NCBI GenBank assembly: GCA_015067255.1
Contig: SVMS01000018.1
Span: 1-43,176, forward strand
Direction of reading: 5' to 3'
Origin: Oscillospiraceae bacterium
GTDB lineage: Bacteria; Bacillota; Clostridia; Oscillospirales; SIG519
Length of the DNA stretch: 43,176 nt
Each line of letters opens with the position of its first letter. Position 1 is the first letter of the stretch. Below are positions 1 through 3,255 of this stretch, piece by piece. The notes under the pieces are model-generated. The model saw only the letters and a program-made list of their open reading frames with translations, did not search any database and was not told the DNA's origin. The position numbers were made by a program, and so were the translations under genes.

Positions 1-78
1 GTGTTCTCGCATATCTACTATAACACTTATTTTGAATTCAGTCGAGTATTTTCGTTGTATTTGTCCCTTTTTTGCCAT
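1..78 (-). CDS. IS3-family transposase OrfA, N-terminal 26 codons only
   Basis: Reading the minus strand from an ATG at 78 to the left edge gives an open frame beginning MAKKGQIQRKYSTEFK and ending ...VDMREH. This is the typical start of the helix-turn-helix OrfA protein of IS3-family (IS150-group) elements, which binds the terminal repeats and, fused by frameshifting to OrfB, forms the transposase. The rest lies outside the window, so completeness is unknown. A GGAGGTG ribosome site sits about 8-14 bases upstream, inside a hairpin at 83-122. The element end would lie near 124. Short but characteristic match; the family call is inference from remembered family sequences. Confidence 0.75.
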   Translation of the reverse strand, partial: MAKKGQIQRKYSTEFKISVIVDMREH

Positions 79-82
79 AAAA

Positions 83-124
83 ATATGCACCTCCAAAAGT
101 GTCTAACTTTTGGGGTGCATATCA
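83..124 (-). repeat. IS3-type terminal inverted repeat with hairpin over the orfA ribosome site
   Basis: On the minus strand the sequence begins TGATATGCACCCC and continues through AAAAGTTAGACA, the usual form of an IS150-group left end. Bases 83-99 (ATATGCACC, T bulge, CCAAAAG) pair with 107-122 to give a 16-bp stem with a 7-base loop. The orfA GGAGG ribosome site lies within this stem. Only one end is in the window, so the partner repeat and target duplication cannot be checked. Confidence 0.65.
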
Positions 125-191: not shown

Positions 192-444
192 TATAATTGT
201 GGTAAACTAATAATTGCCAAACTAATTGAATAAAATAAGACAAGAGCTTTTTATATTTTAAAGCTCTATTTCTGCATCTTTTCAACAGTCTGTGAATTTG
301 ATAAAAACGCAAATTCCTTTTGGGGTTGATTAGATGTATGTTCTTGTCTTATCCAATTAGTTTGGCGACTATTGGAGTTTGCGTTTTTTGTGCGTCTGCT
401 TCGGTAGGCGCATTTTTTTATTATTAATTTTTGGAGGTTTTATT
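192..444 (+). promoter_or_regulatory. Structured leader of the LRR-dockerin gene (attenuator or riboswitch candidate)
   Basis: A TATAAT at 192-197 could be a -10 box; the only -35-like match, TTGAAA at 166-171, is 20 bases away. Downstream, 216-228 pairs with 354-366 (GCCAAACTAATTG / CAATTAGTTTGGC), and 236-244 pairs with 343-351 (TAAGACAAG / CTTGTCTTA). A hairpin AGAGCTTT / AAAGCTCT occupies 243-267. In addition 306-317 (AACGCAAATTCC) can pair with 374-385 (one mismatch), which crosses the outer stem and so would be a pseudoknot or an alternative fold. A UUCG-capped terminator ends the leader just before the ribosome site TTGGAGG at 431-437. No known riboswitch class was recognised. Confidence 0.5.
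391..419 (+). terminator. Intrinsic terminator just upstream of the LRR gene
   Basis: Stem TGCGTCTGC (391-399) pairs with GTAGGCGCA (404-412, with two G-U pairs) around a TTCG tetraloop, followed by seven T at 413-419. There is no room for a promoter between it and the ATG at 445. It therefore probably acts inside the leader as an attenuator. Confidence 0.7.
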
Positions 445-3255
445 ATGAGTATTGTCAAAAATATCAGGCACTTAATCTCTTTTTTGCTGTGTGTTGCGTT
501 GGTAGCAACCCTTATGCCTATGGGTGTATTTACCGTCAGTGCAGGAGATATCGTAGAGTATCATTATACATATACTGTTTCAAACGGTGAGGCAACAATA
601 ACAGGTTGCGACACTTCAATAAGTGGCGATGTTACTATCCCTTCAACCTTAGACGGTTATCCGGTTACAAGCATAGGTGATGAAGCATTTTATTATTGTT
701 ATAGTCTTACAAGGATAACAATTCCCGATAGTGTTACAAGCATAAGTGATAGTGCGTTTTCTTATTGTTTAAGTCTTACAAATATAACTGTAGATTCCAA
801 AAATATTGCATATACTTCGATTGATGGGGTTTTATTTAACAAAAACAAAAGTAAAATAATATGTTATCCGGCAGGAAAAACAGCATCGTCATATGTCATT
901 CCCGACGGTGTTACAAGCATAGGTAATTGTGCATTCTTCTATTGCTCAAACCTTACAAACATAACAATTCCCGATAGTGTTACAAGTATAAACGAATATG
1001 CATTTTATATTTGTTTAAGTCTTACAAATATAACTGTAGATTCTAAAAATATTGCATATACTTCGATTGATGGGGTTTTATTTAACAAAAACAAAAGTAA
1101 AATAATATGTTATCCGGTAGGAAAAACAGCATCGTCATATGTCATTCCCGATGGTGTTACAAGCATAGGCAATTGCGCATTCTTCTATTGCTCAAACCTT
1201 ATGAATATAACAATCCCTGATAGTGTTACAAGTATAAGTTATGGTGCATTTTCTTATTGTTCGAGCCTTACAAGGATAACAATTCCCGACGGTGTTATAA
1301 GCATAGGTGATGAAGCATTTTATAATTGCGCAAGCTTAACAAGTATAGTGATTCCCAATAGCGTTACAAGTATAGGGGATTATGTATTTTATTATTGTTT
1401 AAGTCTTACAAATATAACTGTAGATTCCGAAAATATTGCATATACTTCGATTGATGGGGTTTTATTTAACAAAAACAAAAGTCAAATAATATGCTATCCG
1501 GCAGGAAAAACAGCATCATCATATATAATCCCAAATAGTGTTGCAAGTATAGGAAATGGCGCTTTTGGTGCTTGCTCAAGTATTATAAGTATAACTATTC
1601 CTAATAGTGTTACAAGTATAGGCTCTTTTGCATTTTATAATTGCTCAAATCTCACAAGTATAAACATACCAGACAATGTTACAAGTATAGGTGATTATAC
1701 ATTTTTTTATTGCTCGAACCTTACAAGTATAACAATCCCTAACGGTGTTACAAGTATAGGCGTTTATACATTTGCTTATTGCTCGAGCCTTACAAATGTA
1801 ACAATTCCCGATAGTGTTACAAGTATAAACGAATATGCGTTTTATAATTGCAAGAGTTTAACAAGTATAACAATTCCTAACGGTGTTACAAGTATAGGTA
1901 GTTCTGCATTTGAGTTTTGCTCAAGCCTAAAAAATATAAGTATACCTAATAGTGTTACGAATATAGGCTATTATACATTTGCCTATTGTTCAAGTCTCAC
2001 AAGTATAAAAATCCCTGATGGTGTTACAAGTATAGGCGAGCGTGCGTTTGAGGGTTGCAGGGGCCTTACAACTATAAATATACCAGATAGTGTTACAAGT
2101 ATAGGTGATTATGCATTTTTTCAGTGTTCAAGCCTTATAGGTATAGTGCTTCCCGACGGTATTGCAAGTATAGGTGATGAAGCATTTTGTTATTGTCGTA
2201 GTCTTACAACTATAAATATACCAGATAGTGTTACATATATAGGACATGGAGCTTTTTCTGATTGCAATAGTCTTACAATGATAACAATCCCCAACAGCGT
2301 TAAAAGTATAGGTGATTATGCATTTTATGGTTGTTCGAGTCTTACAAGTATAAACATTCCCGACAGTGTTACAAGCATAGGTTATGGTGCATTTTATGGT
2401 TGTTCGAGCTTTACAAGTATAACCATTCCTGACAGTGTTACAAGTATAGGTGACAGTGCATTTGCTCAGTGCTCAAATCTTATAAATGTAAATATACCTG
2501 ACAGTGTTACAAGCATAGGTGTTTATACATTTGCTTATTGCTCGAGCCTTTCAAGTTTAGTTATTCCCGACAGCGTTACAAGTATAGGCGATGATGCATT
2601 TTATAATTGCGAAAGCTTAACAAGTATAACTATACCCGATAGTGTTACGAGTATAGGTAGTTCTGCATTTGAGTTTTGCTCAAGCCTAAAAAATATAAAT
2701 ATACCAAATAGTGTTACAAGTATAGGTGATAGTGCATTTGCTCGGTGCTCAAGGCTTATAAGTATAACTATTCCCGACAGTGTTACAAGTATGGGCAATT
2801 ATGCATTTTCTAATTGCGCAAGCCTTACAAGTGTAATCATCGGTAACAATGTTACAAGAATAGGTTTGGATGCGTTTTATAATTGTTCAAGCCTTACAAG
2901 CATAACAATTCACGACAGCGTTACATATATAAGTTGGGATGCATTTTACGGTTGTTCAGTTTTGACAGATGTATTTTATTCAGGTACAGAGGAAGAATGG
3001 GCAAATATTTCAATAAATGATGGCAACGATTATTTAACAAATGCCAATATCCATTATAACTACACAGAAAACGAAGCTGTTGAGGGCGACACTAACGGCG
3101 ACGGAGAGATAAATGTTCTTGATGCCATAAGTTTGAGAAACAGCTTATTGGGAAAAGGTACTGACAACGAAAAGGCAGATATGAACGGAGATTCGGTTTT
3201 TGACATTTATGATTTGCTGATATTGAAAGCGATGATTTTTAATAATGTGCCGTAA
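445..3255 (+). CDS. Secreted BspA-type leucine-rich-repeat protein with C-terminal dockerin
   Basis: A 936-residue secreted protein. The start is the ATG at 445, preceded by TTGGAGG with correct spacing; the frame is open further upstream but would run through the terminator hairpin. Residues 1 to about 33 are a signal peptide (cleavage likely after VSA). About 29 repeats of roughly 23 residues follow, with the consensus SLTSITIPDSVTSIGDYAFY, typical of BspA/TpLRR (LRR_5) adhesins. Three repeats carry an inserted NITVDS...GVLFNKN...CYPAGK segment. The C-terminus has two calcium-binding dockerin repeats (GDTNGDGEINVLDAISL and ADMNGDSVFDIYDLL). The protein is probably tethered through its dockerin to a cohesin partner. 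Repeat units are nearly identical in DNA sequence, suggesting recent expansion. The ligand is unknown. Confidence 0.9.
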   Translation: MSIVKNIRHLISFLLCVALVATLMPMGVFTVSAGDIVEYHYTYTVSNGEATITGCDTSISGDVTIPSTLDGYPVTSIGDEAFYYCYSLTRITIPDSVTSISDSAFSYCLSLTNITVDSKNIAYTSIDGVLFNKNKSKIICYPAGKTASSYVIPDGVTSIGNCAFFYCSNLTNITIPDSVTSINEYAFYICLSLTNITVDSKNIAYTSIDGVLFNKNKSKIICYPVGKTASSYVIPDGVTSIGNCAFFYCSNLMNITIPDSVTSISYGAFSYCSSLTRITIPDGVISIGDEAFYNCASLTSIVIPNSVTSIGDYVFYYCLSLTNITVDSENIAYTSIDGVLFNKNKSQIICYPAGKTASSYIIPNSVASIGNGAFGACSSIISITIPNSVTSIGSFAFYNCSNLTSINIPDNVTSIGDYTFFYCSNLTSITIPNGVTSIGVYTFAYCSSLTNVTIPDSVTSINEYAFYNCKSLTSITIPNGVTSIGSSAFEFCSSLKNISIPNSVTNIGYYTFAYCSSLTSIKIPDGVTSIGERAFEGCRGLTTINIPDSVTSIGDYAFFQCSSLIGIVLPDGIASIGDEAFCYCRSLTTINIPDSVTYIGHGAFSDCNSLTMITIPNSVKSIGDYAFYGCSSLTSINIPDSVTSIGYGAFYGCSSFTSITIPDSVTSIGDSAFAQCSNLINVNIPDSVTSIGVYTFAYCSSLSSLVIPDSVTSIGDDAFYNCESLTSITIPDSVTSIGSSAFEFCSSLKNINIPNSVTSIGDSAFARCSRLISITIPDSVTSMGNYAFSNCASLTSVIIGNNVTRIGLDAFYNCSSLTSITIHDSVTYISWDAFYGCSVLTDVFYSGTEEEWANISINDGNDYLTNANIHYNYTENEAVEGDTNGDGEINVLDAISLRNSLLGKGTDNEKADMNGDSVFDIYDLLILKAMIFNNVP

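Follow-up and report, generated by a model that had tools for sequence, protein, structure and literature searches.

A candidate transcription attenuator with a strand-exchange pseudoknot in the leaders of surface-protein genes of gut Clostridia

Introduction

Does the structured stretch in front of an LRR-dockerin gene near the start of contig SVMS01000018.1 (Oscillospiraceae bacterium, assembly GCA_015067255.1) act as a genetic switch, and if so, does it belong to a known class? A preliminary description of the window, i.e., the whole stretch of 43,176 nucleotides analysed, proposed that it has the layout of a switch but fits no recognised class, with a small mobile element carrying 24-base inverted ends as the main alternative. 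The copy in the window was therefore analysed together with its relatives in other genomes.

Results

One copy of a conserved promoter-RNA-terminator unit occupies positions 180–419 of the window. The RNA is approximately 200 letters long and lies just 5' of the surface-protein gene, and all of its features are on the + strand. The promoter (180–208) consists of TTGATA (180–185), a 17-nt spacer and TAAACT (203–208), with TG 5' of the −10 box, and transcription is predicted to start at approximately 215. The TATAAT at 192, pointed out in the preliminary description, was not retained as the promoter, as the promoter aligned across copies is TTGATA-17-TAAACT. Of the 108 copies in which the promoter can be read, 90 have a −35/−10 spacer of 17 nt, and in 79 the −10 box ends 6 nt 5' of the outer stem's first G, the spacing also seen in the window copy.

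The fold of the leader has a predicted energy of −77.8 kcal/mol compared with −45.8 ± 4.1 for shuffled sequences (z = −7.9), and none of 200 shuffles was as good. The outer stem P1 pairs 214–228 with 354–368 (15 bp), the inner helices P2 pair 230–242 with 339–352, and the hairpin P3 spans 243–267, where most other copies carry a GGGAUAnUAUACCC-type hairpin; these three elements agree with the preliminary description. The per-sequence folds consistently indicate a three-way junction that is closed by P1 and P2 and from which P3 and P4 branch, P4 being capped by P5. P4 (273–286/325–338), the position of which is kept in other copies with a different sequence, and the hairpin P5 (294–316, arms 294–300/310–316; GAAUUUG-AUAAAAACG-CAAAUUC) are absent from the preliminary description. 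P5 competes with the crossing pairing EX, in which AAAAACGCAAAUUCC (303–317), partly inside P5, pairs with GGAGUUUGCGUUUUU (374–388) to form a pseudoknot of 15 bp (−18.6 kcal/mol), longer than the 306–317/374–385 previously noted. Between P1 and EX, the unpaired linker GACUAUU (367–373; consensus GACaAUC) is strongly conserved, with a column conservation of 0.56–0.96, mostly at least 0.77. The UUCG-capped intrinsic terminator recognised earlier follows at 390–419, with a stem at 390–413 and a U-run to 419. A ribosome binding site, GGAGG (433–437), and an ATG at 445 then open a gene (445–3255). Its product, an exported protein of 936 amino acids, combines BspA-type LRRs with a type I dockerin at the C-terminus.

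The elements P1, P5, EX and the terminator all covary across copies. P1, at which the 5' end of the RNA lies, is a covarying stem of 12–15 bp. At 12 positions in 112 copies, 95% of P1 was paired compared with 66% in shuffled sequences, P1 having been placed in each sequence where complementarity was greatest, a procedure biased towards pairing; given that four to six standard pair types occur at each of these positions, we regard the covariation as real. RNAalifold did not detect P1 in the raw MAFFT alignment, owing to poor alignment of the central part, and the stem was recovered by the per-sequence folds. The terminator stem showed strong covariation in 68 copies, and in all 68 its base lies 0–2 nt from the EX helix.

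The P5 consensus is GAAUUUG-rU-AAAAAyG-CAAAUUC. The exchange strand AAAAAyGCAAAUUCC can have as its partner either its own hairpin or GGrGUUUGCrUUUUU just outside P1, the latter giving a pseudoknot helix as long as 15 bp. With P5 intact, the loop AAAAAyG pairs with CrUUUUU 3' of P1, forming an ordinary H-type pseudoknot with a 2-nt loop 1 and no loop 2. The EX 3' strand can extend by pairing GGrGUUUG with CAAAUUCC, displacing the 5' arm of P5. Among 68 diverse copies, 99.1% of EX cells were paired, with five pairs changed on both sides and 0 of 500 shuffles as high, and P5 was 97.9% paired, with both-side changes beyond all 500 shuffles, although the patterns by which the subtype-1 copies were gathered contain the strands of P5 and EX, so that the conservation seen in them is inflated. 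At locus L052, the three strands change jointly: in P5, G-C is replaced by A-U, and in EX, C-G is replaced by U-A.

In a divergent subtype from other families, drawn from covariance-model hits, GAAUUUG is absent, but the pairing of AAAAAyGC..CUC with GGAG..GCrUUUUU is kept, and an upstream U-run strand competes for the EX 5' strand. When strands were swapped among the copies of this subtype, with kinship ignored, the EX strand fitted its native downstream partner better than swapped ones in 31 of 32 cases (t = −6.9), and likewise its native upstream competitor in 26 of 32 (t = −4.1). The EX test is fair, kinship aside, because the model used, R1, was built without EX pairs. The covariation thus points to two exclusive structures, EX on the one hand and P5 or the upstream strand on the other, both co-evolving, the divergent subtype included. 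By the same swap test, no antiterminator pairing with a terminator arm was found (5' arm, t = 0.19; 3' arm, t = −2.2, weak). The terminator arms thus co-evolve little or not at all with upstream sequence, which argues against a classical antiterminator.

Copies of the unit were sought at several taxonomic levels, giving a total of approximately 235 (170, plus 65 from the search of the class). This genome holds three. The other two, on contigs 22 and 42, stand in front of a second LRR-dockerin gene and of a gene for a lipoprotein, so that each of the three precedes a gene for an exported protein or lipoprotein. In 394 genomes of the order, which represent 168 genera, a 25-base pattern with up to three mismatches matched 44 genomes from 32 genera, a few of the three-mismatch matches being due to chance; the reversed control pattern gave no match in the 394 genomes. 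A pattern joining both pseudoknot strands matched at least 120 stretches in a species-level genome collection, and the matches listed, among them a named strain, Pumilibacter intestinalis CLA-AA-M10 (locus L145), were all Clostridia by title or labelled Bacillota, mostly gut MAGs. The covariance model R1, built without P1 as well as without EX pairs, matched 83 of 391 genomes of the class, in 52 of 223 sampled genera. Several genomes had at least eight copies, scoring having covered eight candidates per genome. In a 398-genome sample of the phylum, which includes other genomes of the same class, R1 matched this genome only. No copy was found in either of two scans of viral contigs or in plasmids. 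One copy (L241:418-532; MT835503.1) lies in a phage scaffold, obtained from human faeces, that is unverified and may be bacterial DNA, and precedes an adenine-methyltransferase-like gene and an HNH-type protein. Two closely spaced copies in tandem, each with its own terminator, occur before one gene or a short gap apart at L226, L227, L229, L230, L102 and L198.

In 143 of 157 copies, the gene that follows runs in the direction of the RNA, compared with 89 of 152 for the upstream gene (p = 1.6e-11), approximately 9% of copies having no co-directional next gene. One feature of riboswitches, a conserved structure in the 5' leaders of genes on the same strand, is thus present. Start codons lie a median of 32 nt from the terminator, and in 84 of the 143 the distance is at most 40 nt, so that a second promoter does not fit there; with no room for a promoter of its own, such a gene must have an mRNA that passes the terminator. 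In the 65 further copies, nearly all from other orders, the bias was replicated (54/64 compared with 40/64 upstream, p = 0.009).

Downstream proteins are enriched in export signals: an exported or membrane N-terminus was found in 52% of 109 downstream proteins compared with 17% upstream, a lipobox in 33 of 109 (30%) compared with 3 of 136 (2%), and a CxxC zinc-ribbon-like motif in 18% of the 109 compared with 7%, these percentages being approximate, as start codons were set by a simple rule and less carefully for the upstream set. In the further copies, an exported or membrane N-terminus occurred in 21 of 41 compared with 11 of 54, and a lipobox in only 3 of 41. LRR_5 was the commonest downstream Pfam family (10/107), along with zinc ribbons, AMP-binding, Listeria-Bacteroides repeats and collagen, a set that points to no single metabolite. 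A small Cys-rich protein (TGIELTPG..CLGNG..CCCDECDY) recurs in several genera (L102, L133, L186, L235, L237, L056 and L107), mostly directly behind the RNA, and three scanned examples had no convincing Pfam match. At L150 and L145, some downstream genes resemble restriction-modification or nuclease genes, alongside surface proteins; defence-system cargo was rejected, PADLOC having given single matches only.

Discussion

We consider it fairly probable that the element attenuates transcription in cis by means of a strand-exchange pseudoknot, and the RNA probably decides whether RNA polymerase continues into the gene. In the following scenario, polymerase would start at approximately 215, make the pseudoknotted RNA and, 25 nt short of the gene, meet a strong terminator; the gene would be made only on read-through. 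The strand AAAAAyGCAAAUUCC would either stay in its own hairpin or be taken by GGrGUUUGCrUUUUU just before the terminator, the resulting helix of up to 15 bp ending 0–2 nt from it. The partner of the exchange strand is the conserved variable right beside the terminator, and a strand-exchange attenuator is therefore proposed. Some signal, a ligand or a protein, may set the balance between hairpin and EX, and read-through would be regulated by the exchange, one of the two states permitting it. The layout proposed in the preliminary description is thus supported, in that Rfam gave no match, the exclusive pairings co-evolve, the genes are co-directional and there is mostly no room for a second promoter.

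The main rival, which we regard as unlikely, is that the RNA acts directly on polymerase, modifying it to pass the terminator with or without a signal, as an antiterminator of the EAR/epsC type or of the type of HK022 put RNA, a known cis-acting case (PMC9378689). Such action would suit the fixed distance from promoter to RNA, the EX helix 0–2 nt from the terminator, the strongly conserved unpaired linker and the lack of an observed antiterminator pairing. However, we know of no conserved exclusive pairings in put or EAR RNAs such as those found here, and the Rfam library, which includes the epsC family, gave no match.

Less probable still is a stand-alone small RNA that merely tends to precede genes, the downstream gene living on low constitutive read-through. 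The 6S and raiA RNAs have a layout with their own promoter and their own terminator, and the element likewise has its own promoter, a 5' end exactly at P1 and its own strong terminator. Against this stand the strong same-strand bias, the short spacing to the start codon and the enrichment of exported proteins downstream.

A cyclic-di-GMP riboswitch is very improbable. Known c-di-GMP riboswitches also control surface proteins, and the surface and zinc-ribbon gene set resembles c-di-GMP regulons; however, no GGDEF protein was found in this genome or in G410, G590, G621, G757 and G704, which hold from 4 to at least 8 copies each, and c-di-GMP was rejected as a general signal on these grounds. LoaP, whose mode of antitermination calls for a second, specialised NusG in the host, was also rejected as a general factor, as two NusG proteins occurred in 1 of the 13 element-bearing genomes checked and this genome has one. 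The small mobile element with inverted ends has scarcely any claim left, since, despite several copies per genome and tandem copies at some loci, its ends vary by compensatory mutation instead of being fixed, its orientation to the gene is fixed, it is absent from the viral contigs and plasmids scanned barring the one unverified phage scaffold, and the neighbouring insertion sequence stops at 124. That sequence, a multi-copy insertion-sequence end at window positions 1–124, recurs with all 124 bases identical on contigs 22 and 47, encodes on its minus strand what may be the N-terminus of a transposase (MAKKGQIQRKYSTEFKISVIVDMREH) and stops 55 bases before the RNA promoter.

For the strand-exchange attenuator, a wider reading to which we give even chances is that it represents a new class of signal-sensing leader RNA in animal-gut Clostridia, the exchange governing surface-protein expression in response to a general cue other than c-di-GMP. 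If so, one RNA, present in up to eight or more copies per genome, would set which surface proteins and lipoproteins are displayed in many uncultured gut Clostridia. A large orphan switch class would also be added, for which a ligand or direct action on polymerase could be tested in a reporter.

Rfam 15 gave no family at the gathering threshold for the window copy or for the copies in 44 other loci scanned, and relaxed matches to miRNA and snoRNA families, with scores far below threshold, were rejected as chance. A literature search returned no description of the motif, and neither of two surveys that looked for structured RNAs in the genomes of cultured bacteria names the carrier organisms or the genes in its main text. 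A survey of the human microbiome (2021) listed 3,161 candidate structured RNAs (PMC8040213), and the element could be an uncharacterised entry among them.

The element shares with raiA, 6S and other stand-alone clostridial RNAs a start at a promoter and an end at its own terminator, and differs from them in having no Rfam match, a strict orientation and a short distance to a gene. The type III toxin-antitoxin system ToxI-ToxN has the same order of promoter, pseudoknotted RNA, terminator and gene, whereas here no repeat array was seen in the RNA and the downstream genes encode lipoproteins, LRR and zinc-ribbon proteins instead of ToxN-like proteins. HK022 put RNA and the EAR/epsC element likewise combine a cis-acting fold near the promoter with a terminator after it, and for the epsC element, which serves surface-related genes, a pseudoknot has likewise been predicted (PMC2864571). 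The present element differs from them in lacking any sequence or Rfam match and in abutting tightly on one terminator, and, compared with EAR/epsC, often precedes single genes for exported proteins instead of long polysaccharide operons. With orphan riboswitch candidates and transcription-attenuating leaders (such as crcB and pfl before their ligands were known; PMC2864571), it shares a conserved fold in the 5' leader, an intrinsic terminator and many unrelated genes, whereas here there is no hint of a ligand, the fold does not overlap the terminator, the promoter spacing is fixed, and the conserved part itself contains two conserved exclusive pairings.
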